This document shows positions 39,071 through 59,044 of a stretch of DNA of 64,000 nt, piece by piece. This stretch comes from Winogradskyella helgolandensis (GTDB taxonomy: Bacteria > Bacteroidota > Bacteroidia > Flavobacteriales > Flavobacteriaceae), in contig NZ_JABFHO010000002.1 of NCBI RefSeq assembly GCF_013404085.1, positions 124,001-188,000 on the forward strand. The letters run 5' to 3'. The notes under the pieces were generated by a model. It had not been told where the DNA came from, searched no databases, and saw nothing but the letters and a program-made list of their open reading frames with translations. The stretch's first letter is position 1. Each line of letters begins with the position of its first letter. A program made the position numbers and the translations under genes.

Positions 39071-39097
39071 AATAAATTTGGTTTTATAATTATGACA

Positions 39098-39169
39098 CAA
39101 AAGTGATAAGCTTTGGTAAAAGGATTTTCAACTTTTTAGTGAATGGTAAGATTTTGTAAATGAATAGCA
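39098..39169 (-). promoter_or_regulatory. Type A direct-repeat operator and -7-like element
   Basis: On the plus strand TGAATGGTA (39140-39148) and TGAATAGCA (39161-39169), start-to-start 21 bases. On the minus strand these read TGCTATTCA-N12-TACCATTCA. The -7-like CACTTTTG lies at 39105-39098, 34 bases downstream of the repeat. The 85 bases before the ATG are nearly identical to those before the gene at 40635. Spacing and sequence fit LytTR-type operators. Confidence 0.6.
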
Positions 39170-40635: not shown

Positions 40636-40662
40636 AATAAATTTGGTTTTATAATTATGAAA

Positions 40663-40734
40663 CAAAAATGACAAGCTTTGCTAAAAGGATTTTGAACTTT
40701 TTAGTGAATGGTAAGATTAAAGCAATGAATGGTA
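40663..40734 (-). promoter_or_regulatory. Type A direct-repeat operator (perfect copy) and -7-like element
   Basis: Two identical 9-mers on the plus strand, TGAATGGTA at 40705-40713 and 40726-40734, 21 bases apart (minus strand TACCATTCA-N12-TACCATTCA). -7-like CATTTTTG at 40670-40663, again 34 bases away. ACCATTCAT differs from the published LytTR consensus [TA][AC][CA]GTTN[AG][TG] at one position. Confidence 0.65.
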
Positions 40735-40741
40735 CTTAAAT

Positions 40742-41494
40742 TTAAAATACACGGTTGATAAGATCCATAAATTCATCTTTACGGTCTCGTGCTATCGGAA
40801 TACTTTTATTGTTACTCATAATAACCTGAAGACCATCTTTTTTAGTGACCTCATTCATGTATTTTAAATTGATTAGAAATGAACGATGTGGTTTGTAAAA
40901 CAGTGGTTTATTACTGAGTTGTTCTGTGAAGTGTTTTAAGGTTTTACAAATCAATTCCGTTTTACCATTCTGCAAATAGACTTTAGTATACACACCATCT
41001 GCCTCAAAAAATAAGATATCTTCATGCGATACAAAACGAATACCTTTTGGGACTTCTAAAGCTATTTTATTTAAGGCTAATTGCTGAAAATTTCGTTCAA
41101 GATTCTGTAGTTTTTCTTTTATGGAATTTTCTTCTAAATAGGTTGATGCTTTAGCAATAGCTGCTTTCATTTCGACAACATCTATAGGTTTTAAAAGATA
41201 ATCTACAGCTGATAATTTAAAGGCCTCTATGGCGTAATGGCCATAAGCGGTTGTGAAAATAATTTGAAAATTAATAGCCTCAGTTTTAAAAAACTCTAAA
41301 ATCTGAAGTCCTGAATGATTAGGCATTTCAATATCTAGAAATACAATATCTGGCTGTTCCTTTTTAATAATGGTTACACCATCTAATAAATTTTCAGCCT
41401 CAAAAATCGTTTCTATTTCAGAACATTCTTCTACAATTAAGGTATGCAAAATACGTCTTGCACGTTTTTCATCGTCTATAATTATTGCTGTCAT
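40742..41494 (-). CDS. LytTR-type response regulator (module A)
   Basis: A 250-residue regulator: receiver domain (1-120) with phospho-acceptor Asp54 in VFLDIEMP, acidic pair Asp7/Asp8 and Lys102 in YLLKPIDV; then a LytTR DNA-binding domain (about 145-250) containing KPLFYKPHRSFLINLKYM. LytTR domains bind direct repeats with about 21-bp period, which is exactly what precedes the neighbouring secreted-protein genes. The gene lies 100 bases after its kinase and is highly similar to the module B regulator at 55241. Confidence 0.95.
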   Translation of the reverse strand: MTAIIIDDEKRARRILHTLIVEECSEIETIFEAENLLDGVTIIKKEQPDIVFLDIEMPNHSGLQILEFFKTEAINFQIIFTTAYGHYAIEAFKLSAVDYLLKPIDVVEMKAAIAKASTYLEENSIKEKLQNLERNFQQLALNKIALEVPKGIRFVSHEDILFFEADGVYTKVYLQNGKTELICKTLKHFTEQLSNKPLFYKPHRSFLINLKYMNEVTKKDGLQVIMSNNKSIPIARDRKDEFMDLINRVF

Positions 41495-41594: not shown

Positions 41595-44510
41595 TCAATG
41601 TGCTAATTCTATTGTAATCGTTACTTTTGTACCTGAGACGACTTGGTGTGTGTTGTATACATCTTCGACCTCTAATTTTACTTTTTTATCCTGACTGCGA
41701 TTTAATAAATCGATTCGTTTTTGATTTGCTGACGTCGCAAAAGATTTATGATTCCCAACCCGTTGGTTTTTTATTGTTGCTGATGCGGCTCTACCAATTC
41801 CATTGTCAATAATTTCACAAATTAAACGCTTTTGATTCGTGTCTTTAATAAATTTCAACATCAGTTTTTTATTATCTTTTTTATGAAGCAAGCCATGTTT
41901 TAAAGCATTCTCTACATAAGGCTGAATAAATAATGAAGGCACATATATGGTTTCAATATTTAGAGTTTTATCAACGTGAATTTCAAATTTTAGATCGTCA
42001 TCAAAACGTTCTTTTTCGAGTTCTAAATATAATTTTAAGGTTTTAATTTCTTCTTGTAAAGTAATTTCATTGGTTTGGCTGTGTTCTAAATAGGTTCTTA
42101 TCAATCGTGAAAATTTCACTAAATAATTTCGCGCCAATACTTTTTCATTCAAAATAATATAATCTTGAATAGAGTTTAAGGCATTGAATATAAAATGAGG
42201 ATTCATCTGCGATCTCAGATTTTCTAATTGAGAAAACACCAATTGCTGATTAATCTTTGCTTTTTCTAATGCTTGTTGCTGAGAAACATTTAAACGAGCT
42301 GTTTTCCGAGAAAAGTACCACCAAACTATAGTTATTGAAATTAATAAAATTGAGCTATAAAACCACCATGTTTTATAAAATGGCAACCTTACGTTTAAAC
42401 TGACACAAATAGGTTCTGTATATGTTTTTTGAAATGTATTTTTTGCTCTTAAATGAAAGGTGAACTTCCCGGCAGGTAACGTATTAAATTTCACAAAATC
42501 TAAACCTTTTTCTACTGCTATCCAATTATCACTGTAACCTTCTAATTGGTATTCATAATTCACAAACTCGTTAGATTGAAATCCGTTAACATTAAAACCA
42601 AATCTAATTTCACTATCTGTTTGGTCTAATTCATAATTGGATTGAACAATAGTGTCTTTTTCTAAAATCGCTACAGAGGTAAAATACGGCTGAAGCGTTT
42701 GTCTTGTTTTAATAATAGTATTAGCATCAAATTGATATAGTCCCATATTAGAACCAAAGAAAACATCATCATCCTGAACAACAATAGAATTAATGTTGTA
42801 AGAGTCCATACCATCTTCCTTATTTACGGTTATGACCTTTTGGGTGTCATAATTATAATTTTGTAACCCTCTATCTGTGGCAATCCACAAGGATTTTTCA
42901 TCTGGTGTAATCACATTGATAACATTAGAAGCTAAGCCATTTTTCATATTTAATTTATACTGTAAACTATCATTTATAAAACCATACAATCCCTTATTAT
43001 AAGTGGCTACCCAAACCACATCATCTGCTGTTATTGCAATTTTAGAACCATAAATAGGGGTATTATTATAGGTGATTTGTTTATAGGCTTTTGTCTTTAA
43101 ATCGACCACACCAAAACCATCAATAAAATTAGAATAAGCTTTAGTTTTATTCTTGTTTAAGACGGAACCATAACTTCTCACCAAACGCAATAAAGACAGG
43201 GAATCTCCTTTTTTACTATATAGAGATAAGGCATGCGGAAGGCTCACTAAATATTGGTCTTCATCGTAAACAGAGATAGATTTTGTTACAATCAACTCGC
43301 TTTTCTTATTCAATTCTTCTCTTGAGTTATGAAAAACCGACTCAGTTGTCGCTACCATTAAGAGATCATTAGATAGTGCGTTGTAACAAATGCCGTAAAT
43401 ATTGTTCCTAAACGAAACATCAAGTTGTTTTATACCATTATCTGTTTTAGAATAGTTAAAAATATTAAAGTCCGAAGTCGCCAAATACAAGTTTTCTTTG
43501 TCAGTTTTTTCAATAGCAGTAACCCCTACATTATTTGGTAAAGCTATTTTTTTTAAGGCAAGATTGGGCATTACAAAAACACCGTTTTTTAGCGTTGTCA
43601 CCCAAAAATTAGTATTGGAATCTATGATAAGATCTGTAGTGTAGCTATTCTTAAAATAGCGTTCACTAATCCTTAGTTTATTATTTTTAATTTCAGTAAT
43701 AAAAATACCTCTATTCGTTAACACCCATAATTTATCTTTGATTTGGTAGGCATTCACCACTATTAAAGAAGATAATATTTCTGGTAATTGCACCTCTCGT
43801 AAATCCTTGTTATTAGTAATATAAAACATGGTATTTCTTTTTGAAGATATTAATTCATTGAAGAAAAACACATGATTATTATATTCAAAAAACTTTTTTG
43901 ATCCACTTTGTTGAGTGGTTTCAAATGGATATTTATGAATTGGTTGAACGTTTTTTAAAGCCGTATCTTCTGTAAAATAAATAAGGTTATTTTTATTAAA
44001 ATAGAAACCATCTTTATGAGCGTTTAAATGATTAAAATGATCTTCATAGAGTTCATTAATCGTATTGACAACGGTTTTGGTATCTAAATTTACACTAACT
44101 AAATTATTATTTGCAGAAATTAAAAGATGACTATTATAGATATAGAAATCTACTAATGTATTGATATCTTTAAAGTCCTTGAAGAGTTTTAGTTCATCAT
44201 CTTCCACATAAAAAAATTGACCTGAAAGATTATTACACCATAGACGTCCTTTTGCATCTAAAGTTAGTCCAAATAGTGACCTTCCACGTTTTACAGGATT
44301 AGTGAATAGTTTATAATGCTTACCATCATAACGATACAAACCTTTATCTGCTGCTAACCAAATAAAACCTTCTTGATCTTCAAGGATGTCATAAAACTCA
44401 ATATCTGGTAAGCCATCTTTTTCGGTGAGGTGAATAGACACAGGTTGTTGAGCAGCTACAAACCAAGTTATTGTAAAAAAAAATAAATATTGAAGCCCTC
44501 TTAATTTCAA
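41595..44510 (-). CDS. Two-component propeller sensor histidine kinase (module A)
   Basis: A 971-residue sensor: signal peptide (1-20, VAAQ); a large periplasmic seven-bladed-type propeller region (about 25-630) with repeated two-component-regulator-propeller motifs (EDQEGFIWLAADKGLYRYDG); Y_Y_Y domain (about 650-715); one membrane helix (about 722-742); His_kinase domain with the histidine in MNPHFIFNALNSIQ; HATPase with DNGIGRA. TTG start (44510) is forced by an in-frame stop directly upstream. Kinase and regulator genes form the core of module A. The ligand is likely a glycan or other polymer, by analogy with Bacteroides propeller sensors. Confidence 0.95.
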   Translation of the reverse strand: MKLRGLQYLFFFTITWFVAAQQPVSIHLTEKDGLPDIEFYDILEDQEGFIWLAADKGLYRYDGKHYKLFTNPVKRGRSLFGLTLDAKGRLWCNNLSGQFFYVEDDELKLFKDFKDINTLVDFYIYNSHLLISANNNLVSVNLDTKTVVNTINELYEDHFNHLNAHKDGFYFNKNNLIYFTEDTALKNVQPIHKYPFETTQQSGSKKFFEYNNHVFFFNELISSKRNTMFYITNNKDLREVQLPEILSSLIVVNAYQIKDKLWVLTNRGIFITEIKNNKLRISERYFKNSYTTDLIIDSNTNFWVTTLKNGVFVMPNLALKKIALPNNVGVTAIEKTDKENLYLATSDFNIFNYSKTDNGIKQLDVSFRNNIYGICYNALSNDLLMVATTESVFHNSREELNKKSELIVTKSISVYDEDQYLVSLPHALSLYSKKGDSLSLLRLVRSYGSVLNKNKTKAYSNFIDGFGVVDLKTKAYKQITYNNTPIYGSKIAITADDVVWVATYNKGLYGFINDSLQYKLNMKNGLASNVINVITPDEKSLWIATDRGLQNYNYDTQKVITVNKEDGMDSYNINSIVVQDDDVFFGSNMGLYQFDANTIIKTRQTLQPYFTSVAILEKDTIVQSNYELDQTDSEIRFGFNVNGFQSNEFVNYEYQLEGYSDNWIAVEKGLDFVKFNTLPAGKFTFHLRAKNTFQKTYTEPICVSLNVRLPFYKTWWFYSSILLISITIVWWYFSRKTARLNVSQQQALEKAKINQQLVFSQLENLRSQMNPHFIFNALNSIQDYIILNEKVLARNYLVKFSRLIRTYLEHSQTNEITLQEEIKTLKLYLELEKERFDDDLKFEIHVDKTLNIETIYVPSLFIQPYVENALKHGLLHKKDNKKLMLKFIKDTNQKRLICEIIDNGIGRAASATIKNQRVGNHKSFATSANQKRIDLLNRSQDKKVKLEVEDVYNTHQVVSGTKVTITIELAH

Positions 44511-45474: not shown

Positions 45475-45493
45475 TTGTTTTAAGGTTTAGCTT

Positions 45494-45526
45494 ATACCAT
45501 TCCTCATTTTAAACAAGAAATGGTAT
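45494..45526. other. Inverted repeat upstream of the LRR lipoprotein gene
   Basis: ATACCATT (45494-45501) and AATGGTAT (45519-45526) face each other across 17 bases. The arms contain the core of the type A half-site (ACCATT) but in inverted rather than direct orientation. No T-run follows, so it is not called a terminator. Confidence 0.4.
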
Positions 45527-45569
45527 GAAGATTTGAGTTTTAAATTTATTTGTTCTTTGTTCTAGAATA

Positions 45570-46601
45570 TTAGTTTATGGACACAGTATTACCACAACCC
45601 GAATTTTTGCGGTACACTTGTACATTAGTAGAATCATAAGCATTACTTCCACCAGACTTCGTTATTTTTTGTAAATAAGCATCTTGATCACAGCTCCACC
45701 TGGCTGTTCCACCAGCACTAATTCTTGTTCCTGGATTACTACTTCCAGCTCTACCTACATAAATTTCATTATTCGAGTTATTACGAAGTGTTACCGTGTT
45801 TTTTAACTCTGATGCCTGATAGTTTGCCTCATTTTGTTTTATTCTTCTTTGCAAGTCTTTATACTCTGGCGTAGCCTTGATTGAATCGTTATAACGTTTT
45901 ATTTCTTCGTCTCCAGCTTCTCTTGCGCGTTTAATTTTGGCAATATCTGTTTTGTCTTGGGCCGTTATTGGACTCGCTTGTTTGGCTTTCATCGCCGTGA
46001 CGTAATCGTTGAATATTTTTTTAATATTTACCGTTTGAATATACTTATAGGTTGGTGATTGTCCTGTAGCTTCTAACTTTGCTTTCATGCGTGCTATAAA
46101 ACCACCTTTCTTTTTTTTCTTCTTTCCTGAGTCATCTTTTGCTTCGGTACGATCTTTAACCATGACATATACAGCTGTAACATCCTCAACTTTTGGAACA
46201 CCGTTACTTGGGATATAACTAATATCAAATATCAAATCGTCAATGACCATGTAACCATCTAAGCCTCTTTTGTGAATATTCTTTATAGTCATTACATTTG
46301 GGTAACTATCTACTCTACCATAATCGCTTATTTCCGACATACCAAAACCACCATAACTTTCTGAAATGGGATTAGCTTCAAAGCCTACAGGTTGTCCTGT
46401 TGCCAATTTTTTTACGGTTATTGTTACCGCTGGTTTTCCACTTACAATAGCTATAGTACCATCGTCATTTATAGATATGCCAGAAAAACCTTCGTAGGTT
46501 GCTGTCTCACCATTAGCCTCTAGAGCTTCGTAAAAGGTTTTTTGAGCTTGCGCTATGGTTGCTGTAAAAATTAAAGCAACCGTTATCATTATTTTTTTCA
46601 T
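45570..46601 (-). CDS. Secreted protein with Lys-rich linker, module B member of a paralogue pair
   Basis: A 343-residue exported protein: signal peptide (1-19, AQAQ), N-terminal beta-rich domain, a basic linker GKKKKKKGGFIARMKAKLE, the block YKYIQTVNIKKIFNDYVTAMKAKQ shared with the module A protein at 38195, a charged helix, and an extra C-terminal beta domain (about 270-343) with two cysteines (WSCDQD, GCGNT). Preceded by a complete type B direct repeat. Function unknown; having one paralogue per module suggests a defined role in each regulon. Confidence 0.8.
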   Translation of the reverse strand: MKKIMITVALIFTATIAQAQKTFYEALEANGETATYEGFSGISINDDGTIAIVSGKPAVTITVKKLATGQPVGFEANPISESYGGFGMSEISDYGRVDSYPNVMTIKNIHKRGLDGYMVIDDLIFDISYIPSNGVPKVEDVTAVYVMVKDRTEAKDDSGKKKKKKGGFIARMKAKLEATGQSPTYKYIQTVNIKKIFNDYVTAMKAKQASPITAQDKTDIAKIKRAREAGDEEIKRYNDSIKATPEYKDLQRRIKQNEANYQASELKNTVTLRNNSNNEIYVGRAGSSNPGTRISAGGTARWSCDQDAYLQKITKSGGSNAYDSTNVQVYRKNSGCGNTVSIN

Positions 46602-46631
46602 AATAGGTTAAATTTTAAGTTTATATAGTGT

Positions 46632-46695
46632 CAAATATCGAATATGACAGAGCTAAAAAATGAAGTAAGTTTCTGAAATGCCGTTTTTAACTTCT
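46632..46695 (-). promoter_or_regulatory. Type B direct-repeat operator and -7 element, copy 1
   Basis: Plus-strand half-sites TAAGTTTCT (46666-46674) and TTAACTTCT (46687-46695), 21 bases start to start; CAAATATC at 46632-46639 (minus GATATTTG) is exactly 26 bases from the proximal half-site. This is the most diverged of five copies, yet spacing is conserved to the base. Confidence 0.65.
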
Positions 46696-46735
46696 AAAAA
46701 ATAAGGACTTCTAAAAATTTGAATTACCCCGAAAT

Positions 46736-47194
46736 TTATTCAGAAACCGCTACAACAAACGCTTTAATTTTTTGTTGTGTCATAGCAATAACCTTCGCTT
46801 CATTTTTGCTGTAAAAATTACTATAACTAAAGTCCGTCCAATCTTCGCTATCTGCATCTGCTGCTTTTACCATAACAAAACTTTCGTCATCGTAGGTAAT
46901 AACAAAAAGTCCGTAATCGTTGTAAAAAACAGGAATCCCCAACTCTCTACTTTCTTCTTTTTGATACTTATAAATTGCAGGCATACATTGAGCACAAGCC
47001 GCAATTGCTAATACCTTATCGCCTGCAAACTCTCCATATTGAAAAAGTTTAGATTTGGTTGGCTTATTGCCTATCCACTTTTCGGCTTCTAACAAATGGT
47101 AAGTACCGTTAATGGCTTCTGTAGGAATTTCACTTTGAGAAAAAAGCACAGATGATGTAAATGCTATAATAAGGTAGTCTATAATTGTTTTCAT
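46736..47194 (-). CDS. Small exported protein with CxxC motif (module B)
   Basis: A 152-residue protein with signal peptide (1-19, LFSQ). The mature chain has a CAQC motif (about 68-71), VFYNDYGLFVITYDDESFVM and an acidic stretch. Two nearby cysteines could form a disulfide or bind metal or haem; no known fold is recognised. Preceded by a complete type B repeat, so it is placed in the module B regulon. Confidence 0.75.
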   Translation of the reverse strand: MKTIIDYLIIAFTSSVLFSQSEIPTEAINGTYHLLEAEKWIGNKPTKSKLFQYGEFAGDKVLAIAACAQCMPAIYKYQKEESRELGIPVFYNDYGLFVITYDDESFVMVKAADADSEDWTDFSYSNFYSKNEAKVIAMTQQKIKAFVVAVSE

Positions 47195-47222
47195 AATTAG
47201 GTTATGTTTTAGATTTATAACA

Positions 47223-47286
47223 CAAATATCTATGATGCTGTCGTTGGTTTAGTGTATCAGTTTCTAAAACACCACTTTCAACTTCT
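47223..47286 (-). promoter_or_regulatory. Type B direct-repeat operator and -7 element, copy 2
   Basis: Half-sites TCAGTTTCT (47257-47265) and TCAACTTCT (47278-47286), 21 apart; CAAATATC at 47223-47230, again 26 bases away. The distal half-site is next to the terminator of the preceding gene. Confidence 0.7.
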
Positions 47287-47290
47287 AAAC

Positions 47291-47325
47291 AAAAAAATCT
47301 CGTAAGCCTTACACTTACGAGATTT
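47291..47325 (-). terminator. Repeated-type terminator 1 (after the LamG gene)
   Basis: Stem AAATCTCGTAAG / CTTACGAGATTT, seven-base loop, T-run on the minus strand. One of four closely similar hairpins in module B. Confidence 0.85.
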
Positions 47326-47346
47326 CTAAAAAAACACAACTATGTA

Positions 47347-49902
47347 TTATTCCTTGATGAAACGTTTGGTTGAAACGTTTCCGTTTACATCTTCTATTTT
47401 AATTAAGAATACTCCGTTTGGTAAACGAGAAACATCAATCTGTTTATTTTCAGTTCTAATCACTTCTTTACCTAAAATAGAATAGACGCTTGCTTGTTTG
47501 ATGTTTTGAGTCATTTCTATGTTTAATATTGAATTTGTTGGATTTGGATATAGTTTGATTTCGTTTTCATTTAGTTGAAAATCATTTGTACTTAAAAATG
47601 GTGCTCCAAACTCATAAACTCCCATATCTACAGTTGTATTAAAAACACGTTGGTTTCCTAATAAATCTGTGGATTCAAAAACAAAACTGTTGTCTCCTGT
47701 ATCAACCGCAGGCGAACCAGAAGTTAATGTAAAGTCCCCATTTGCAGCATCCGTAAATAGAGGATTAGAGTTAGTTGTATTACTTGTATTTGTAATTACA
47801 GCATCGTTAAAATTGGCTTCATCTATAGAATTTAAAACATTTACAGATGTAGGTGGCTGTTCATATAAATCTGTTATAGAACGTGCAGTTAAACCACCAG
47901 TAGCTGTATTACCCCAAAAAATAGAATTAGCTACTGTTGTATTTACTGCCCCTGCATTTCCGTTACTTCTACTTATAGCTAACGTTGATCTACTAAAGTT
48001 ATTTAAATTTTGCTCTGTACCTGTATCGCTATTACTAACGAATGTAGAATTAATGATGTCTATATTTAAAGTAGAACTGCTACTAATACTTAAATTCCTA
48101 AGCCATGCCGAACTACCAGCATAGCCTTGTGCAGTTGTACTATTCAAATTTCCTGCAATATTACCATCAAATAAACTATTGGTAATATTTATATTTGCAT
48201 CAGTATCGTCACGAACAAAGCTATATATAGCTGTTGCCCATCGAGCCATATTATTAGAGAATATACAGTTTTCAATATTCAACTCACCTAATATCCCTGT
48301 TCCATTAAGATCATATTCAGCTAATAAACCTGCATTGCCGTTTCTTGAAACATTATCTTTTATAATACAATTTTTAAGGGTTAGCTTAGTAACCCCAGAA
48401 TCTTTTACAATTGCACCACCACTCTCAAAAGCATCTAAATTATTATGTGCATCACTTACTGTTATACCTTCTAATAATAAATTATTTCCGTATTCCGTAA
48501 TATTTATAACATGGTAACTATTATCTGCATTTCGAGTTGTGTTTGAATAGCTAGAAATAAAATCGGTTGTATTTACATCATTATCTTGTAAATCTCCTGA
48601 TAAAATAGTCGTATTTAAAACATGATCTGCATCAGATTCCTGAGTTTCTGTTCCATTAAACCCTCCGATAATTTTTAAATTTTCTTTGTTTACTGTAAAA
48701 TAAACGCTTCTATCAAAAGCATGTGGTTTATAATTACCTGACGCAACCCAAATATGATCACCAGAGTTTGCCAAATCTAACGCTGTATTTAAATTAATAT
48801 ATGCATCAGACCAGCTACTACCATCATTATTTCCTGTTGCATTATAGTTAACATAAGTTGGTATTCCTGTATTCTTAAAAATAAGGGGTGCAGACCATGA
48901 TGAATAACTACCATTTCCACAATCTTTTCTAACATAAACTTTATAAGTTTCTGGCGATGTTCCAGTAATAGTTGTACTTGCTCCTCCTGAAACACTTGAA
49001 ACAACTGTAGCAGAAGAAAAAGGTTGAGAAACTTCATGATACGCAATATCCACAGTTTGTGTACCTGGTACATTTACATCTATATTTGTAGCTGTAATAT
49101 TAGAAGTAAATAACTGATTAGTAATTCCAACACAAAAATTATAGTCACCAATAGATGTTATTTCTGCAGCTGATATCTCTCTATCATAAATTAATATATC
49201 ATCAATAACGTCTCTATAACTGCTTGTAGCCGTCGGGTATGAAGATCTATTTCTTGCTAAACCAACAATACCGTTACTATCAAATCCTCTATTACTATAA
49301 CTTGAGGCACTTGGATTCCCAGTCGAATCCACTAATTGTCCGTCAACATAAATTTTTGAAATTAACATATGTGTTGTAATAGCAATATGATGCCATTGAT
49401 CATCACTAATATCCATAGATGTTATATTATAAACAATATAGTTAGAACCCACATTAAATCTTGAATAGTGGTTTATCTCTCCATCTTTTAAATAAATATG
49501 GTAACCTTTGTTAAAAGTTCCTCCAAGGTCATAAATTATTGTTCTTTCATTATTATCATTGGTTGCCGTCTTAATCCAAAATGACAAAGAAATATCATCA
49601 TAAGAAGAGTCGTGATCTAAGTTTACTCGTTGAAAATCATCTCCATTTAACTGTAAAGCTCCATTAGCTGTACCAAATCTATCATTAACAAATAGTGAAG
49701 CTGATCCATGTTGAGAAAAATTAGCGCCATTAGCACCATCTACTAAAGACCCATTATCAAATCCATACTGAGCTATTAAATTAGTAGTAGGAAATTGGGC
49801 GAAAGAAAAACTACATATAAGTAGTAATAAATAAAATAATTTTGTTTTACTCACGAGACATTTATTGATTATGTGTTCGTTAAAAAATGTAATTTTTTTC
49901 AT
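47347..49902 (-). CDS. LamG / beta-helix surface protein with T9SS sorting domain (module B)
   Basis: An 851-residue protein. A long N-terminal leader (KITFFNEHIINKCLVSKTK before the hydrophobic core; cleavage near FSFAQ) is shared with the gene at 51854. LamG/concanavalin-like domain about 45-250 (RTIIYDLGG, DDQWHHIAITTH); a fibronectin-like segment; a right-handed beta-helix region of the choice-of-anchor type (about 350-760, LSGDLQDND, ENCIFSNNMA); C-terminal T9SS domain (about 775-851; LYPNPTNSILNIEM to STKRFIKE). Likely glycan-binding or degrading surface protein; no catalytic residues identified. Type B operator upstream. Confidence 0.92.
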   Translation of the reverse strand: MKKITFFNEHIINKCLVSKTKLFYLLLLICSFSFAQFPTTNLIAQYGFDNGSLVDGANGANFSQHGSASLFVNDRFGTANGALQLNGDDFQRVNLDHDSSYDDISLSFWIKTATNDNNERTIIYDLGGTFNKGYHIYLKDGEINHYSRFNVGSNYIVYNITSMDISDDQWHHIAITTHMLISKIYVDGQLVDSTGNPSASSYSNRGFDSNGIVGLARNRSSYPTATSSYRDVIDDILIYDREISAAEITSIGDYNFCVGITNQLFTSNITATNIDVNVPGTQTVDIAYHEVSQPFSSATVVSSVSGGASTTITGTSPETYKVYVRKDCGNGSYSSWSAPLIFKNTGIPTYVNYNATGNNDGSSWSDAYINLNTALDLANSGDHIWVASGNYKPHAFDRSVYFTVNKENLKIIGGFNGTETQESDADHVLNTTILSGDLQDNDVNTTDFISSYSNTTRNADNSYHVINITEYGNNLLLEGITVSDAHNNLDAFESGGAIVKDSGVTKLTLKNCIIKDNVSRNGNAGLLAEYDLNGTGILGELNIENCIFSNNMARWATAIYSFVRDDTDANINITNSLFDGNIAGNLNSTTAQGYAGSSAWLRNLSISSSSTLNIDIINSTFVSNSDTGTEQNLNNFSRSTLAISRSNGNAGAVNTTVANSIFWGNTATGGLTARSITDLYEQPPTSVNVLNSIDEANFNDAVITNTSNTTNSNPLFTDAANGDFTLTSGSPAVDTGDNSFVFESTDLLGNQRVFNTTVDMGVYEFGAPFLSTNDFQLNENEIKLYPNPTNSILNIEMTQNIKQASVYSILGKEVIRTENKQIDVSRLPNGVFLIKIEDVNGNVSTKRFIKE

Positions 49903-49929
49903 AATTGGTTTTTATTAAGATTTAGAAAA

Positions 49930-49993
49930 CAAATATCTACTATGAAGCTTCATTAAAATGGGGTGAGTTTCTGAAACACCATTTTCAACTTCT
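49930..49993 (-). promoter_or_regulatory. Type B direct-repeat operator and -7 element, copy 3
   Basis: Half-sites TGAGTTTCT (49964-49972) and TCAACTTCT (49985-49993), 21 apart; CAAATATC at 49930-49937, 26 bases from the proximal half-site. Confidence 0.7.
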
Positions 49994-49997
49994 AAAG

Positions 49998-50033
49998 CAA
50001 AAAAATCTCGTAAGCATAACACTTACGAGATTT
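49998..50033 (-). terminator. Repeated-type terminator 2
   Basis: AAATCTCGTAAG / CTTACGAGATTT with loop CATAACA and T-run on the minus strand; ends the propeller/LRR gene and abuts the next operator. Confidence 0.85.
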
Positions 50034-50056
50034 CTAAAAAAAAACAAAACTATGTA

Positions 50057-51700
50057 TTATTGTTTGACAAAACGTTTGGTTGAAACATTTCCGTTTTCAT
50101 CTTCAATTTTAATTAAAAATACACCGTTTGATAAACGAGAAACATCGATCTGTTTATTTCGAATTTTTAATACTTCTTTACCTAAGAGAGAATAGACAGT
50201 TGCTTGTTTGATGTTTTTAGTCATTTCAATGTTTAAAATTGAACTTGTTGGGTTTGGGTGTAATGAGATTGAATTTAGATTAAAATCATTTACGCTTAGT
50301 GAGCAATTAGTGCTAAAACCTGTTTGCGTGTCAATGTTTGTCCAATTAGAATCACTGTAAGCGACATTATCTACCTGAATACAAGTAAGATTTGGATTTC
50401 CATCTGCTTCAAAATTAGAAAAATTACTATTATTTCCATTTGCAACATTTAAACTTGTTAAATCATTTTGACCAACAACTAAAAAAGTTAAAGCTGAATT
50501 AGTGCTCACATCTAAACTTGTTAAACTATTAGAAAAAAGGCTTAATTGCTCTAAAATTGTATTTGAAGAAACATCTAAAGTTGTTAAATTATTTAAACTA
50601 GCAAACAATGTTTCTAATACGGTATTATTAGAAAGATCTATAGATGTAAGTTGATTATCATTTGCATGTAAGGCCGTAAGATTTACAAAAGCCTCAATCC
50701 CTGTTAAATCTGAAATAGATTGACCTGAACAAGAAATTAATCCTGTAAAGGCAATTGCTTCACTACATTGTATTTCTGCATCACCATTGGTGTTTATAGC
50801 AGTGTTTCCAACTAAATAAGATTTAAAGTTGGCATCTGGGATGTTTACAGTACAAGGTGCCAAATTGGTGTCTGTATATTTATAAATACCTGGTAGTGTT
50901 CCAACCACAGCGATATAAATATCTTCACCATCAATATCTATACCTCTTGGATTATTGATCGATTGACCTATGTACGAAACTACTCCTGTACCCGATTTAT
51001 GAATTTTACGAATATATCCTGTACTTGCACTGCTAATAAAATACAGATAATCATTTACAAAATGAATTCCCCATGGTTTTGGCAAACCACTTTTCACCAA
51101 TTGAGCCATTGGTGCCGCTGCTGCTAAGTCTATTTTATAAATAGCTCCATTACTGCTGCCTGTACCAGTATATGTAAAATACATAATTGACCCTTCATTA
51201 GTAACATCTGCTATATATTGATGACTTACTGGCAAGGAAGCAACAAATACACTCGAGTTAACACCTGTAGCTTTACGTAATTCGTGTAGCGAATTATTAT
51301 TAGGATTTGTAGATGTAAAATATAATTCATCATTATAAATGTAAACTGTAGACACAGTTCCTGAGGTATTTAATGCTTCATAAGAGCTTGTTGGTATTGT
51401 ACCTTCAACATAAGCCGATCTAATACCATAACCTGGCACATAAATATTCTGGTTTAGACTCCAAAGATTATAGCCATTATAACTTATACCATTACTAGTG
51501 AACCCTGTAGCCACAGTTTCGAAATTATTTGTCCCAACTTGATTTTTATTAGCTCTTAATAGATTAGCATTACTCGTGGTATAGACATAATCATCTACTA
51601 CTGTGACACCTCTTGCGTCTCCGCTACCTGATGCAATTCTTGTTTGCGCATAACTTAATGTTGAAATTAACATCAATAATAAAAGTAAATTTGTTTTCAT
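50057..51700 (-). CDS. Beta-propeller plus leucine-rich-repeat protein with T9SS sorting domain (module B)
   Basis: A 547-residue protein: signal peptide (1-18, LSYAQ); N-terminal propeller-like region (about 20-275; repeated strands such as PKPWGIHFVNDYLYFISS, NPRGIDIDGEDIYIAV); a block CTVNIPDANFKSYLVGN that also occurs at 51854; leucine-rich repeats (about 340-430); a Cys-containing cap; and a T9SS domain (about 472-547). It shares terminator, operator and sorting domain with its neighbours but carries a different N-terminal passenger. Likely an adhesin or ligand-binding surface protein. Confidence 0.9.
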   Translation of the reverse strand: MKTNLLLLLMLISTLSYAQTRIASGSGDARGVTVVDDYVYTTSNANLLRANKNQVGTNNFETVATGFTSNGISYNGYNLWSLNQNIYVPGYGIRSAYVEGTIPTSSYEALNTSGTVSTVYIYNDELYFTSTNPNNNSLHELRKATGVNSSVFVASLPVSHQYIADVTNEGSIMYFTYTGTGSSNGAIYKIDLAAAAPMAQLVKSGLPKPWGIHFVNDYLYFISSASTGYIRKIHKSGTGVVSYIGQSINNPRGIDIDGEDIYIAVVGTLPGIYKYTDTNLAPCTVNIPDANFKSYLVGNTAINTNGDAEIQCSEAIAFTGLISCSGQSISDLTGIEAFVNLTALHANDNQLTSIDLSNNTVLETLFASLNNLTTLDVSSNTILEQLSLFSNSLTSLDVSTNSALTFLVVGQNDLTSLNVANGNNSNFSNFEADGNPNLTCIQVDNVAYSDSNWTNIDTQTGFSTNCSLSVNDFNLNSISLHPNPTSSILNIEMTKNIKQATVYSLLGKEVLKIRNKQIDVSRLSNGVFLIKIEDENGNVSTKRFVKQ

Positions 51701-51728
51701 AGGTTAAGAATTTTAAAGTTTATAAAAT

Positions 51729-51792
51729 CAAATATCTTAAACCAGCCTACTAAAAATGCGCCTTAACTTCTGAAACACCACTTTCAACTTCT
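51729..51792 (-). promoter_or_regulatory. Type B direct-repeat operator and -7 element, copy 4
   Basis: Half-sites TTAACTTCT (51763-51771) and TCAACTTCT (51784-51792), 21 apart; CAAATATC at 51729-51736, 26 bases away. Minus strand: AGAAGTTGA-N12-AGAAGTTAA-N26-GATATTTG. Confidence 0.75.
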
Positions 51793-51795
51793 AAA

Positions 51796-51831
51796 ACAAA
51801 AAACCTCGTAAGCATAACACTTACGAGGTTT
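51796..51831 (-). terminator. Repeated-type terminator 3 (with compensatory change)
   Basis: AAACCTCGTAAG / CTTACGAGGTTT, loop CATAACA. Compared with the other copies a T-A pair has become C-G on both arms, showing that the hairpin itself is conserved. Confidence 0.85.
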
Positions 51832-51853
51832 CTAACAAAAACAAAACTTACTA

Positions 51854-53581
51854 TTATTGCTTGATAAAACGTTTGGTTGAAACGTTTCCGTTTTCGTCTT
51901 CAATTTTAATTAAAAAGACACCATTTTCTAGACTTGAAACATCTAGCTTTTTATTTTGAGTTTTTAATACTTCTTTACCTAACATAGAATAGACAGTTGC
52001 TTGTTTTATGTTTTGAGTCATTTCTATATTTAACATTGAACTTGTTGGGTTTGGCTGTAATGAGATTGAATTTACATTAAAACCATCTACGCTTAATGCT
52101 GCGCAATCGTCACTATAACTTGCTGTTGGATCTTTTTGCCAAGTTGTTGGTGGTGTGAAGGCTGCGTCTATTTGAATGCACGTTAAATCTTGGTTGTTAA
52201 GTGCATTAAATTGAACAAAATTCGCATTGTTTCCATTTGCAACGTTTAAACTTGTTAAGGAATTGTTGTTTGCTTGTAAAACATTTAAAAAGGTGTTGTT
52301 TGATATATCTAAACTTATAAAACTATTATCATCAATCTGTAAAGATTCTAGAGCTAAATTTGACGATACATCTAAACTTGTTAAACCATTATTTATACCC
52401 TTTATATTTTTTAAAGCTGTATTTGATGACAGGTCTAAATTTGATAAAGTATTAGATTGAAAGGATAGATTTTCTAAAGCAGTATTTGATGATATATCTA
52501 GATTCGTTAAACTATTAAAGTCTAAAACGACACGAACTAAAACTGTATTATTAGAGAGATCTATACTTGTGATACTATTATTATAACAACTTAAATAAAC
52601 TAAAGCCGTATTAGAAGATATATCTATACTTGTTAAATTATTGTTACCAGAAGATAATACTACTAAAGCTGTATTAGATGATACATCTAAACTTGAAATA
52701 CTGCTATTATTATCACACCAAAGACGGGTTAAAAGCGTGTTTGTTGAGACATCTAAACTAGACAATGCGTTAGATTGACAATACAATTCTAGTAAAGCTG
52801 TATTTTGAGAAATATCTAAACTCGTTAATGCATTATCTCGACAATTTAAAATTGAAATATTTGTAAAGGCCTCTATACCTGTTAAATCTGAAATATTTAA
52901 ACCATTAACAATTACGGCTCCAGTAAACGCACTGGCCTCACTACATTGTATTTCTGTATCACCATTGGTGTTTATGGCAGTATTACCAACTAAGTAAGCT
53001 TTAAAGTTTGCGTCTGGGATGGTTACTGTGCAAGGTGTATAAGGTGAAAACACAATATCATCAACTCCAAAATTTTGTGAACTACCATTAGTTAATGATA
53101 TATCTATGCTGCTAACATTAGTCCAATTTAAGTTCACTGAAACAGCATTTTGAGCAACATTCGCTGTTACAACGGCATTACCTGAACTATTATTTGGCGT
53201 AAAAGTCCAGTTAGTACTACCTGCATCGGCAGAAAAAGCTTTGAGGCTTTGAATATCTATTGCAGGAAAAAAACTTAATCGAACAACTTGTTGAGGTTGC
53301 TGATTCATAACAGCCTTGCCTGTAGTGCCTTGAGTAAACGTACCTAACAGAATAGGTGTACCGTTAACAGGGTCTGAAAAATTAACTTCATTACCACCTA
53401 CAATTTGTTGTGCAATAATGTCTTGATTAGACGAACCAAAACTTAGTAATGTTCCTGTCTCCCAATCAAAAGTCTGTCCATAACTCAATGCAGAAATTAG
53501 CGTAAATAATAAAAGTAATTTTGTTTTACTCACGAAACATGTATTGATTAAGTGTTCGTGAAAAAATGTAATTTTTTTCAT
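51854..53581 (-). CDS. Leucine-rich-repeat protein with T9SS sorting domain (module B)
   Basis: A 575-residue protein. The leader KITFFHEHLINTCFVSKTK plus hydrophobic core (cleavage near LSYGQ) resembles the gene at 47347. A beta domain (about 36-180), CTVTIPDANFKAYLVGN block, nine 21-residue repeats (252-441; pattern LTSLDISSNTALxxLxxxNNx), a Cys cap (DLTCIQID, DDCAA) and a T9SS domain (about 500-575) follow. Closest in layout to the gene at 50057, with a different N-terminal domain. Probable surface binding protein, controlled by the type B repeat upstream. Confidence 0.92.
   Translation of the reverse strand: MKKITFFHEHLINTCFVSKTKLLLLFTLISALSYGQTFDWETGTLLSFGSSNQDIIAQQIVGGNEVNFSDPVNGTPILLGTFTQGTTGKAVMNQQPQQVVRLSFFPAIDIQSLKAFSADAGSTNWTFTPNNSSGNAVVTANVAQNAVSVNLNWTNVSSIDISLTNGSSQNFGVDDIVFSPYTPCTVTIPDANFKAYLVGNTAINTNGDTEIQCSEASAFTGAVIVNGLNISDLTGIEAFTNISILNCRDNALTSLDISQNTALLELYCQSNALSSLDVSTNTLLTRLWCDNNSSISSLDVSSNTALVVLSSGNNNLTSIDISSNTALVYLSCYNNSITSIDLSNNTVLVRVVLDFNSLTNLDISSNTALENLSFQSNTLSNLDLSSNTALKNIKGINNGLTSLDVSSNLALESLQIDDNSFISLDISNNTFLNVLQANNNSLTSLNVANGNNANFVQFNALNNQDLTCIQIDAAFTPPTTWQKDPTASYSDDCAALSVDGFNVNSISLQPNPTSSMLNIEMTQNIKQATVYSMLGKEVLKTQNKKLDVSSLENGVFLIKIEDENGNVSTKRFIKQ
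52259..52828 (-). repeat. Nine tandem 63-bp leucine-rich-repeat units
   Basis: Each unit encodes about 21 residues (one unit has 22). Plus-strand text shows recurrent (A/T)GATATATCTA and ACACTTGTTAA-like cores. Could expand or contract by recombination. Confidence 0.85.
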
Positions 53582-53612
53582 AATAGGTTAAGAATTTTAA
53601 AGTTTATAAGAC

Positions 53613-53676
53613 CAAATATCTTAATCCAACCTATTAAAAATGACACTGAACTTCTGAAACACCACTTTCAACTTCT
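53613..53676 (-). promoter_or_regulatory. Type B direct-repeat operator and -7 element, copy 5
   Basis: Half-sites TGAACTTCT (53647-53655) and TCAACTTCT (53668-53676), 21 apart; CAAATATC at 53613-53620, 26 bases away. Minus strand: AGAAGTTGA-N12-AGAAGTTCA-N26-GATATTTG. The proximal half-site lies just beyond where a -33 element would be, and no TTTG is present there, as expected for an activator-dependent promoter. Confidence 0.75.
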
Positions 53677-53683
53677 AAACATG

Positions 53684-53717
53684 AAAATCTCGTAAGCAGT
53701 AAACACTGACGAGATTT
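53684..53717 (-). terminator. Repeated-type terminator 4 (after the S41 peptidase gene)
   Basis: Same outer stem AAATCTCGT / ACGAGATTT as the other three copies, with a different inner part that forms CAGT / ACTG. Short T/A-rich tail on the minus strand. Confidence 0.7.
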
Positions 53718-53738
53718 TTACAAAAATGTTATACGTTT

Positions 53739-55106: not shown

Positions 55107-55240
55107 AATTTCTTTAAATAATTTCAATGCTTTTAGTGAGCACCTCTTCATTAAACATTAATTAGGTTACTTTAAAATGATTTAGGACTTCAAAATAAAA
55201 TCAGTAGTTGATCAAATTCTACTTTGAACGTGTAAAAAAG

Positions 55241-55993
55241 CTATCCTATATTTTGAACTATAGTTAAAAACTCTTCCTTTTTATCTTTTGAGACAGAAAC
55301 CGTTTCATCGTTATCCATGATAATATAACCGCCATCTTTTTTATAATATTCTTTAATATACTTTAAGTTGATTAAGTACGAACGATGTGGTCTGTAAAAC
55401 ATAGGAATAGTATCTAATAATTCTTCAAAATGTTTTAATGGCTTACTGATTAACAGCTCTGAAGCATCTTGCACATGAACTTTGGTGTACATACCATCTG
55501 CCTTTAACAGGATGATATCATCAAAATTCACAAACTTGATACCATCTGCAACTGGAAGTGCTATTTTTTTAAAATTAGACGATTTTAAACTTTTCTGAAG
55601 CTCATCTAATTTGATGTTAATATGAGATTTCCCTATGTTAATAATCGCTTTATCAATTGCATCACTAAGCTTATCTAATCGCAGTGGTTTTAATAAATAA
55701 TCTACAGCCGAAAGTTCAAAAGCCTTAATAGCGTATTCGCTATAAGCCGTTGTAAATATAATTTCGAAATTACGATGTGTTTCCTCCAAAAAATCAAAAA
55801 TTTCTAAACCCGAATGCTCTGGCATTTCAATATCTAAAAATACAATTTGTGGTTGTTCAGCTTTTATAATTTGGACTCCACTTAACAAATCTTCAGCGGT
55901 AAAAACAGTAGTCACTTTTTGGCAATTCTCCTCTATTAGTATATTAAGCAATTTTCTTGCTTTAGGTTCGTCGTCTATAATTACTACTTTCAT
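55241..55993 (-). CDS. LytTR-type response regulator (module B)
   Basis: A 250-residue regulator with receiver (Asp54 in VFLDIEMP, Lys102 in YLLKPLRL) and LytTR domain (about 145-250; MFYRPHRSYLINLKYI). Closely related to the module A regulator at 40742 across the whole length, but the DNA-binding half differs at many positions (compare TKKDGLQVIMSNNKS with YKKDGGYIIMDNDET), consistent with a different target. It follows its kinase by 32 bases. Expected to bind the AGAAGTTGA-type repeats. Confidence 0.95.
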   Translation of the reverse strand: MKVVIIDDEPKARKLLNILIEENCQKVTTVFTAEDLLSGVQIIKAEQPQIVFLDIEMPEHSGLEIFDFLEETHRNFEIIFTTAYSEYAIKAFELSAVDYLLKPLRLDKLSDAIDKAIINIGKSHINIKLDELQKSLKSSNFKKIALPVADGIKFVNFDDIILLKADGMYTKVHVQDASELLISKPLKHFEELLDTIPMFYRPHRSYLINLKYIKEYYKKDGGYIIMDNDETVSVSKDKKEEFLTIVQNIG

Positions 55994-56025
55994 ATGTGTT
56001 TATTTTATTAAAGCATGTTTAATGA

Positions 56026-58953
56026 TTAATCTGTAGTGTATGGGATTGTAATATCAACTTGCGTACCTACAGGTATATCTTTATCAAACAGATCGGTAAT
56101 AATGACACCAACTTGTTTTTCCTTTCCGTAGTTTAATAATGCTAATCGATCTTGAGTAGCTTTAGTAGCAAAAGACGGATGACTTTTACGACTTCTCGAT
56201 TTAAATTTTTCAGCTTGTGCTCTACCAACACCATTATCTACAATAATACATCGTACTGTTTTTGATTCATCATTTATAAAGAAATTGATTTTTAAATTCC
56301 GATCTGTTTTACGATGTAACAATCCATGTTTTAGAGCATTTTCTACATAGGGTTGAATAAGCATGGTAGGAATATTAGCTTCGTCTGGCTTTAAACTGCC
56401 AGATGTTGAAATGCTATAATGTAATTTATCCTCAAAACGTAACTTCTCTAATTCTAAATACATTTCCAAACAATCAATTTCTTCTTGTAAGGTAATCTTC
56501 CCCTTGGTGCTATGGTTTAAGTAAGTTCTTATTAAATCTGCGAACTTTCCCAAATATATAGTTGCTAATATTTTTTGGTTTAAAACAATATATTCTTGTA
56601 TCGAATTTAACGCATTGAATATAAAATGCGGATTCATTTGCGACCGTAAATTTTCTAGTTTTAAAGCGATTAACTCATTATCTAAAGAGAGTTGTCTAAT
56701 CTCCAATTCTTTTGCTATTTCTTTATTTTTTAATTTCCTTTTGTAATACAAAATAATGAGACCTACAAAAGACAAACTGTAGGCTAAAATAAACCACCAC
56801 TTTTTCCAATATGGTAATTTGATATTCAACTTAATGCTTTTAACATTACTCTCAGTCCCCTCATTAATCGATGTTGGTCTTACCTGAAATGTATATTTCC
56901 CCACTGGTAGGCTACTATATTTCACGGTATTCACACCTAAATCTGTGGTAATCCAGTTATTATTATAACCAACTAAACGGTATTGATACGTTTTATTTAA
57001 ATTGTATAAAATACCATTGACATTAAAACTAAATTGTACTGAATTCTGATTATAATCTAAATCATAATCCGTTCCTAGATCAGTCGATTCTTCATTAATT
57101 TTTATATCATTAAAATAAATTTCGGGTTGCGACGTCTTTTTAAACACCTTCTCTTTATCAAAAGAAAAAACACCCTTGTTTGAAGACAATACCACGCGGT
57201 TCTTTAAGACTTCGATTCCTGAAATTTTGTAAGACAAAATACCATCTGTCTTGTTTAAATTTTTAAAATCCTTCCTATCCGTATTAAACACTTGCAAACC
57301 TTTTGGTGTCGCTATCCAAACCGAATTTTCATCAGCCTTTAAATATTTAATCTGATCAGACAACAAGCCTTCTGTTGTAGTGTAATGCGCAATAACTTGA
57401 TTATCCCTTATTGCAAAAATTCCATTTTTAAACGTTCCCACCCAAACGATGCCATCTGCAGTTTCCGTAATAGAAATGGCTAAAATCTCTTTCTCGTTAT
57501 AGCGTATTGTAGTGGACTTAAAATCGTTATCTAAAACTAATAAATCATCGACATACCCAATAAAAATAGTATTGCTATTTTCACTGTAGTAGGTTGTATA
57601 GATCCGCTTGTTATCAGAAAATGTTTTAACTAACTCTGCATTATTATTCAAAAAAGCCAATCGGCTATACGTCCCAAAAAGTGTCATCGTTTCATTAACA
57701 CGAGAAAAACTTTTCACACCAAGAAATTCATGTTTTTTTATGGTTTCTAATGTCTTGTTATTTACAAAATAAGCACCATCGTCGATACTTACATAACTAT
57801 ATCCAATGTTAGAATTATACTGTATTGCAGAGACTTTATTACCCAGGTTAGCAGATGCTTTATAAGTAGAAGCATCAACGTTTAAAAACCCTACGACTCC
57901 ATTTTTAGAACCAAAAAACACAAGCGAATCATTCACCTTATCGATAGCCATAATATCATCGCTGTTTTTAGGTAATTTATGTTTTACAACCTCTATATTC
58001 GGAATTAAATGAACACCATTAGTAAGTGTGGACACCCAAAAATTTTGATCTTTATCAATGATAACGTCAGTAACGATTTCATCTTCTAATATTTGGTTTT
58101 TAAGTGTGAATTCATTTTTATCGTTTTCATAAATATAAATTCCGGTATGGGTTAACACCCACATATTGTCCTTTATGATCTTTATCCTAATAATCCTTTT
58201 ATTTTTCAGAAGTTCTAATCCTATTGTAGCATCCGTAGTGCCTGTATTTAGGTTGATACTTCTAAACATGTTTTTATACTTAAATTGTTGAGAAAAAAAT
58301 AAAATCTCATTTAGTTTAAAAACTTGAGTTTGACCTTGTGCTGTAGTCATACCTTTAGAGCCACGATAGTGGATATTAAGCAAAAACTGATTGGTCTCCT
58401 TAAAATCATTATTGAATATTTTTACAGCATCAAAACTAATCAACATGTAGCCCGTATCTAGAGGCATCAATCTTGCCCCACCATTTCCATGAAGTTCTCT
58501 TAAAAGAATTTTCTTGGTAATTAAATCAATAATATATAACGAATAACTTGTCGTAATTAAAAGTTTATTGTCTTGTATACAGTAATTTCCCAACTGCCCT
58601 TTTAATTCCTCTTTTAAATCTATAAAGGTGATGAGTTGGTTGTTTTCAACATAAAAGAACTGTCCTGAAATATTAGTGCACCATATACGGCCTTGTGTAT
58701 CTTCAAAAAGTCCAAAAACGGATAGGCCTCTTTTTTCTGCGTTAGTATATTGGGTATACGTTTTGCCATCATAACGATATAAACCCGTATCTGAAGCTAA
58801 CCAAATAAACCCTTTACTATCTTCTAAAACATTATAAAACTCAATATCTGGTAAGCCATCTTTTTCAGTAAGATGAATAGACACAGGTTCTTGCGCACAC
58901 AAAAAATGCAAGCCTAGTAGCAATACAATAAAAAGTAGTATTTTCTTCAACAT
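56026..58953 (-). CDS. Two-component propeller sensor histidine kinase (module B)
   Basis: A 975-residue paralogue of the module A kinase: signal peptide (1-20, LCAQ), periplasmic propeller (about 25-630), Y_Y_Y domain (about 645-715), a membrane helix (about 728-747), His_kinase domain with MNPHFIFNALNSIQ, and HATPase with DNGVGRA. The N-terminal 60 residues (EPVSIHLTEKDGLPDIEFY) are almost identical to module A; the rest of the propeller has diverged, as expected if the two recognise different ligands. It is the start of the kinase-regulator operon. Confidence 0.95.
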   Translation of the reverse strand: MLKKILLFIVLLLGLHFLCAQEPVSIHLTEKDGLPDIEFYNVLEDSKGFIWLASDTGLYRYDGKTYTQYTNAEKRGLSVFGLFEDTQGRIWCTNISGQFFYVENNQLITFIDLKEELKGQLGNYCIQDNKLLITTSYSLYIIDLITKKILLRELHGNGGARLMPLDTGYMLISFDAVKIFNNDFKETNQFLLNIHYRGSKGMTTAQGQTQVFKLNEILFFSQQFKYKNMFRSINLNTGTTDATIGLELLKNKRIIRIKIIKDNMWVLTHTGIYIYENDKNEFTLKNQILEDEIVTDVIIDKDQNFWVSTLTNGVHLIPNIEVVKHKLPKNSDDIMAIDKVNDSLVFFGSKNGVVGFLNVDASTYKASANLGNKVSAIQYNSNIGYSYVSIDDGAYFVNNKTLETIKKHEFLGVKSFSRVNETMTLFGTYSRLAFLNNNAELVKTFSDNKRIYTTYYSENSNTIFIGYVDDLLVLDNDFKSTTIRYNEKEILAISITETADGIVWVGTFKNGIFAIRDNQVIAHYTTTEGLLSDQIKYLKADENSVWIATPKGLQVFNTDRKDFKNLNKTDGILSYKISGIEVLKNRVVLSSNKGVFSFDKEKVFKKTSQPEIYFNDIKINEESTDLGTDYDLDYNQNSVQFSFNVNGILYNLNKTYQYRLVGYNNNWITTDLGVNTVKYSSLPVGKYTFQVRPTSINEGTESNVKSIKLNIKLPYWKKWWFILAYSLSFVGLIILYYKRKLKNKEIAKELEIRQLSLDNELIALKLENLRSQMNPHFIFNALNSIQEYIVLNQKILATIYLGKFADLIRTYLNHSTKGKITLQEEIDCLEMYLELEKLRFEDKLHYSISTSGSLKPDEANIPTMLIQPYVENALKHGLLHRKTDRNLKINFFINDESKTVRCIIVDNGVGRAQAEKFKSRSRKSHPSFATKATQDRLALLNYGKEKQVGVIITDLFDKDIPVGTQVDITIPYTTD

Positions 58954-59044
58954 TTAAAAATTGTAGATAAAACTACAATAAATTACAAATTGTAAGCCTA
59001 TAAGCTTTTAAAAGTGTGTTTTTAACTGCTGAAAGTCGTTGTTT

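Follow-up and report, generated by a model that had tools for sequence, protein, structure and literature searches.

Five neighbouring genes on the minus strand of a 64,000-nt stretch of the Winogradskyella helgolandensis genome (NZ_JABFHO010000002.1, positions 124,001 to 188,000; genome size 4.6 Mb), hereafter called the window, share a double-box element in their promoters, and the question arises which regulator reads this element and to what effect. The initial annotation had described direct repeats with a 21-bp period at a 26-nt spacing from an identical -7 element and had named a LytTR-domain regulator encoded at 55241 (here RR55) as the binder. In our analysis the five elements are, very probably, operators of RR55, and the predicted role of this regulator and its propeller-type sensor kinase is the activation of local cassettes of secreted proteins, some of them sorted by the type IX secretion system (T9SS). 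The elements, designated class A operators, and the accompanying -7 elements are listed below by their positions in the window.

53647-53676, minus strand: double box TTTAGAAGTTGA...TTTCAGAAGTTCA, class A operator 53647..53679, of gene 51854-53581
53613..53620, minus strand: -7 element GATATTTG of gene 51854-53581, 26 nt from box 2
51763-51792, minus strand: double box, class A operator 51763..51795, of gene 50057-51700
51729..51736, minus strand: -7 element GATATTTG of gene 50057-51700
49964-49993, minus strand: double box, class A operator 49964..49996, of gene 47347-49902
49930..49937, minus strand: -7 element GATATTTG of gene 47347-49902
47257-47286, minus strand: double box, class A operator 47257..47289, of gene 46736-47194
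47223..47230, minus strand: -7 element GATATTTG of gene 46736-47194
46666-46695, minus strand: double box, class A operator 46666..46698, of gene 45570-46601
46632..46639, minus strand: -7 element GATATTTG of gene 45570-46601

The pattern scan of the window revealed a pair of AGAARYTNA boxes, spaced by N12 (21-bp period), at all five minus-strand promoters, with box 2 located exactly 26 nt from GATATTTG at 5/5 promoters and the start codon 61-65 bp from box 2, so the described geometry proved exact. The N12 gap lies within the published geometry of LytTR sites, two 9-11-nt repeats spaced by 11-13 nt (PMC4847170, PMC6193735), as had been claimed. The absence of a TTTG at -33, also asserted, was borne out: the linker that separates box 2 from the -7 element contains no TTTG at any of the five promoters, and a TTG at one. 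A genome-wide scan had been suggested as a check; five of the seven matches of the bare two-box pattern in the genome fell in this window, and the reversed pattern gave three. A sigma-70 promoter scan (43 found, 43.7 expected) was uninformative for this phylum, and Rfam at gathering scores gave no match in positions 36000-62000 of the window.

Such similarity of promoters might be a mere by-product of recent tandem duplication of the cassettes, with no selection on the element itself. From one cassette to another, identity is 84% and 83% over blocks of 311 and 412 bp that include the end of a gene, a terminator and an operator, and the cassettes have, to judge from these blocks, multiplied by block copying. 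However, the mean pairwise identity among the five sites was 0.96 for box 1, 0.82 for N12, 0.77 for box 2 and 1.0 for GATATTTG, whereas it was only 0.37 for the linker. Because the letters of the linker are nearly unrelated while its length is fixed, the DNA geometry appears to be under selection, and because the boxes and GATATTTG are conserved and the linker is not, the sites represent more than duplicated DNA. The same geometry also recurred at loci where regulator identity is no more than about 57-76%, and duplication without selection is scarcely credible as the whole explanation.

The proposed regulator and its kinase are encoded next to each other.

55241..55993, minus strand: RR55, a LytTR response regulator proposed to bind the class A operators, with Response_reg and LytTR domains and the FYRPHRS motif
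56026..58953, minus strand: sensor histidine kinase with Reg_prop propeller, Y_Y_Y and His_kinase domains

The makeup of a LytTR two-component system was found in this pair, with PF00072 and PF04397 (72.3 bits) in RR55 and PF06580 in the adjacent kinase. The DNA-contact motif FhRhHRS of LytTR domains (PMC4227749) is intact in RR55 as FYRPHRS (residues 199-205); its F, H, R (204) and S were invariant across 52 aligned regulators and R201 was replaced by K in some of them. A PDB search with the whole of RR55 returned mainly receiver domains among the best 60 of 174 matches, and a search with its LytTR half matched 3d6w and, weakly, ComE.

Element and regulator were found to co-occur in the genus. 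With the gap between the boxes and GATATTTG left free at 11-41 nt, 33 sites were detected in 11 of 68 genus genomes (reversed pattern, none), and the gap was 26 nt in 32 of these sites and 25 nt in one. The strict element was present in exactly the 11 genomes whose best RR55 match was at least 68% identical (Fisher's test, 6.5e-13 over the 68 genomes, relatedness uncorrected). It was absent from five genus genomes with a regulator match of 63-66%; in four of these five (loci L234, L235, L236 and L238) a variant element followed the regulator gene, and in the fifth (L237) it did not.

The analysis was extended to 397 genomes drawn from the larger family, allowing no more than one mismatch to the pattern TTYAGMARYTSAAA-N6-TTTCAGMARYT. 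It yielded 36 sites in 18/397 genomes (15/237 genera), and the reversed control yielded none. The 20 regions surrounding the 31 sites outside the window's own genome were examined, some of which are the same places as loci in another locus set of this analysis. Near an RR55 orthologue (61.8-75.6% identity) lay 24 of the 31 sites, in 13 regions, none of the 24 inside a predicted open reading frame (ORF); one region, L288, held five cassettes in a row. Among the remaining seven, those of L276, L281 and L282 were inside ORFs and those of L279, L284, L286 and L291 outside. The genomes of L284, L286 and L291 hold an RR55 orthologue elsewhere, and the L291 site stands before a Por_Secre_tail gene at the correct spacing.

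The position of the element relative to the regulator gene was evaluated with a matrix built from the five window sites, applied to 80 loci around relatives of the regulator. In each locus except L167, where the regulator gene lacked a usable end, the highest score within the 380 nt at or beyond this end was ranked among all scores of the locus. It took rank 1-2 in 20/23 orthologue loci (at least 56.8% identity) versus 4/56 loci of more distant LytTR genes (L176, L190, L199 and L211). The three misses were L151, L153 and L162; in L151 the regulator gene precedes that of the kinase, and the element lies behind the latter. In a set of 31 non-redundant loci (regulator about 57-76% identical), from which near-identical regulators had been dropped, L146 and L147 left out and regions lacking a 56% orthologue skipped, and which includes a few loci of the window's own genus (L157, L161, L237), the element ranked third or better downstream of the regulator operon in 25/31 loci and upstream of it in 20/31. 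The system is predicted for several Flavobacteriaceae genera and, farther away, for the genome of Marinoscillum furvescens (L169).

Another linked regulator might bind the element instead, for example the paralogous LytTR regulator RR40 encoded at 40742, which is 51% identical to RR55, or the LuxR-like regulator at 61389 (a label given by eye), both located in the same neighbourhood. However, L097, L102, L103 and L104 possess an RR55 orthologue and class A operators in regions without a 40742 orthologue, and the constant neighbour in other genera is the RR55 orthologue. A different binder is thus very unlikely, and the assignment to the regulator at 55241 gains support from the genus co-occurrence, the family neighbourhoods and the position beside orthologues.

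The genes behind the five elements encode the following products.

51854..53581, minus strand: leucine-rich repeat (LRR) protein with Por_Secre_tail, the T9SS tail (Pfam)
50057..51700, minus strand: LRR protein with Por_Secre_tail (Pfam)
47347..49902, minus strand: Laminin_G_3 protein with Por_Secre_tail (Pfam)
46736..47194, minus strand: 152-aa protein with a signal-peptide-like N-terminus by eye, no Pfam match
45570..46601, minus strand: 343-aa protein with a signal-peptide-like N-terminus by eye, no Pfam match

The notion of a local regulon of surface proteins is supported by co-occurrence, neighbourhood and position; as regards the surface, Por_Secre_tail was found in three of the five products and the other two had no Pfam match. 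Among 20 genes of related loci, 19 of them directly behind an element and one (L150) some 600 nt away from the end of the regulator gene, Por_Secre_tail was present in 10, no Pfam match was obtained for seven and one encoded a terpene synthase. The last of these, L283 6296-7276, is located behind a class A operator in another genus.

The relation of the operator to the core promoter was examined in 49 distant sites of the 31-locus set, picked by matrix score. The matrix left out the -7 element, so that only the -7 spacing is independent of the selection, and base counts over these sites are partly circular. TTT[GA] occurred at exactly 26 nt in 30/49 sites and at 25 nt in 11/49, at a background of 0.033 per position. 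A location of the operator at a fixed distance just upstream of the core promoter, as LytTR-type regulons require, was thus found in the genus and in the distant sites. The letters of the -7 element vary among relatives (GATATTTG, TAGTTTTG, CATTTTTG) and its position hardly does. GATATTTG differs from the Bacteroidota sigma-A -7 box TAnnTTTG at the first T, and relatives have TAGTTTTG or CATTTTTG at the same place. In Flavobacterium psychrophilum this box is located at -12 to -5 (PMC9723704); by this placement the operator would span about -71 to -39, adjoining the expected -33 position.

LytTR sites have been described as lacking a common consensus (PMC4847170). The initial annotation had fitted GAAGTTGAA to [TA][AC][CA]GTTN[AG][TG] at seven of nine positions by its own count. 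That register is possible; TTYA-GAARYTSA is nevertheless the better one, because class A read in this way also lies 34 nt from the -7 element, as in the paralogous systems. The TTYA register moreover resembles the published YpdB motif GGCATTTCAT (PMC4847170).

RR55 could be the correct binder and yet act as a repressor or a pulse switch. The evidence consists of sequence only, and rapid promoter clearance has been described for the LytTR regulator YpdB (PMC4847170). However, an operator ending at about -39 leaves the -7 box uncovered if this box lies at -12 to -5 (PMC9723704), which fits activation, as does the lack of TTTG in the linkers. Control of this other kind is rather unlikely. For RR55 as an activator the following course may be proposed. 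The kinase would sense an external ligand through its propeller, and a phosphorylated RR55 dimer would bind the two half-sites, which are two helical turns apart (TTYAGAARYTSA, 21-bp period). With the downstream edge of the operator adjoining the -33 position, the regulator could recruit RNA polymerase to promoters that have a -7 element only. Each secreted-protein gene would form its own cassette with its own operator copy, and the copy at the kinase-regulator operon would provide feedback. The paralogous pair 41595/40742 would act alike on its own genes through the half-site TACCATTCA in the same geometry.

The putative feedback site precedes the kinase gene.

59001..59033 (boxes 59001-59030), minus strand: weak class A-like operator (TTCAGCAGTTAA..TTTTAAAAGCTTA), two mismatches, 25 nt from TAGTTTTA
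58968..58975, minus strand: putative -7 element TAGTTTTA of the kinase-regulator operon, assigned by eye

This site is kept in the relatives L096, L097, L098 and L101-L104. Because copies of the element occur upstream of the operon in orthologue loci, the kinase-regulator operon is likely to be autoregulated. In L101-L104 the kinase is about 52% and the regulator about 84% identical to those of window 55241-58953, the sensor diverging much faster between these sub-clades than the output. In two species (L098 4557-7159 and L099 12815-15417) a shorter kinase (615 aa) with its own regulator, 68% identical, is inserted between the propeller kinase and the cassettes, and the class A operators remain.

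The paralogous system of the window comprises the following features.

40742..41494, minus strand: paralogous LytTR response regulator RR40, proposed class B binder, from domain matches
41595..44510, minus strand: paralogous propeller-sensor kinase, from domain matches
40705..40734, minus strand: class B operator of LRR gene 39226-40674, boxes TACCATTCA-N12-TACCATTCA, -7 element CATTTTTG 34 nt further
39140..39169, minus strand: class B operator variant of gene 38195-39100, -7 element CACTTTTG 34 nt further

The mechanically assigned TTG starts of genes 39226-40674 and 38195-39100 overlap these promoters, the true ATG codons being probably near 40635 and 39070. The site 40705-40734 was the only perfect class B match in the genome, and up to three mismatches gave 20 matches versus 12 for the reversed pattern. 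In five related loci, TTT[GA] was found 34 nt from the second TTCA at 10/10 class B sites. Class B was absent from L097, L103 and L104, and L102 had just one weak match, located within a gene.

A third group of regulators was examined in 14 loci (L105-L115, L239, L240, L243), most of which have the half-site TTYAGAAARAAA. The combination of period 21 and spacing 34 gave 27 matches, about four of which look by eye like coding repeats, versus a mean of 2.4 in the other cells. Another cell was also high (period 25, 17 matches), probably through a TTCATTCA overlap at the same sites. L105 and L239 had no matches; inspected by eye, their spacing is 33 nt. The idea that one rule holds for all LytTR regulators was considered and rejected: TTYA-21-TTYA-34-TTTG matched 14 times in 56 distant loci, which did not exceed the neighbouring spacings at the same period, and twice at 19 other LytTR loci of the window's own genome. 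The 21/34 geometry belongs to this regulator clade and not to more distant LytTR genes.

Several results weigh against RR55 as the activator of these cassettes. At three mismatches the scan of the window's own genome gave 23 matches versus 36 for the reversed control, the signal not being separable from noise. The site before the kinase gene is weak in the window, and a peptidase S41-like gene (53739-55151) without the element lies between the regulator and the first cassette. The family sites of L279, L284, L286 and L291 lie outside ORFs and away from the orthologue. In the 31-locus set the element missed the top three ranks downstream of the operon in six loci (L153, L162, L237, L287, L288, L290) and upstream in 11 (L148, L154, L156, L158, L161, L163, L168, L169, L285, L287, L288), the upstream test having no matched control set. 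At three of the 10 class B sites TTT[GA] also stands at 26 nt, which makes their -7 element ambiguous. Finally, we infer the activating sign of control from position alone.

Among known systems, YpdAB and BtsSR of E. coli, whose kinases YpdA and BtsS belong to the LytS-type family, resemble the window's pair in combining a kinase with a LytTR regulator and in two direct repeats about two turns apart. The YpdB motif GGCATTTCAT and box 2 have TTTCA in common (PMC4847170). Unlike in these systems, the sensor is a Reg_prop/Y_Y_Y propeller, the half-site is extended to TTYAGAARYTSA, the promoter is a -7-only Bacteroidota promoter and there are many cassettes per locus. AgrA of Staphylococcus aureus shares the LytTR domain with its FhRhHRS-type contact motif and has direct repeats upstream of suboptimal promoters (PMC4227749), but differs in half-site, sensor, phylum and core promoter; the centre of its proximal repeat is near -60, whereas here it would be at about -43 for the box as initially annotated. 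The LytTR Regulatory Systems (LRS) HdrRM and BrsRM show the same 12-bp repeat spacing, an operator just upstream of the core promoter and autoregulation (PMC6193735). An LRS pairs a LytTR protein with an inhibitory membrane protein, whereas a receiver domain and a histidine kinase were found here; LRS-type repeats upstream of the own operon were present in 20/31 loci and weak in the window. Hybrid two-component systems (HTCS) of Bacteroidota have a Reg_prop/Y_Y_Y periplasmic propeller sensor and unite kinase and AraC-type regulator in one protein. The propeller sensor is shared with them, but here kinase and regulator are separate ORFs with a LytTR output.

Direct-repeat binding by LytTR regulators is already well known (PMC4847170, PMC4227749). 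A full-text literature search found no operator described for a Bacteroidota LytTR regulator among the matches listed (including PMC10197871), as far as the available excerpts of these papers go. New here is a predicted Bacteroidota LytTR regulon with its regulator, operator, core promoter and targets, which would offer a rule by which targets of this clade of regulators can be found and link a defined class of sensor with the regulation of T9SS-sorted surface proteins. The three groups of paralogous regulators share a single geometry and have three different half-sites; together they constitute a natural data set on the LytTR recognition code. When the class A regulators were contrasted with those of class B and of the third group, positions 147, 157, 163, 183, 224, 232 and 233 emerged as candidate specificity residues. 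In a broader reading, for which the case is about evenly balanced, the locus would be a widespread, expandable surface-protein island, where any secreted gene that comes to lie behind a copy of the terminator-operator-promoter block falls under the control of a single, self-regulating propeller kinase/LytTR pair. Paralogous pairs would be insulated as only the half-site letters changed (TTYAGAARYTSA, CCATTCACTAAAA, TTYAGAAARAAA), both the period (21 bp) and the TTYA-to-(-7) distance (34 nt) being fixed. If this is true, the recognition code and the evolution of paralogue specificity could be read directly in these genomes.

The secreted-gene content differed strongly between species (window 44806-55151 compared with L096-L104) and the flanks were largely constant. 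Recombination could take place at the repeated blocks described above, each with its gene end, terminator and operator. The peptidase S41-like gene is not at its window position in the relatives L096, L097, L098 and L101-L104. In L153, L155, L157, L158, L160, L161 and L240 the linker is filled, as noticed by eye, by a terminator-like palindrome (e.g., GCCATTAA..TTAATGGC followed by TTTTTG), and in these loci the regulator gene's terminator and the promoter of the gene behind it may overlap.

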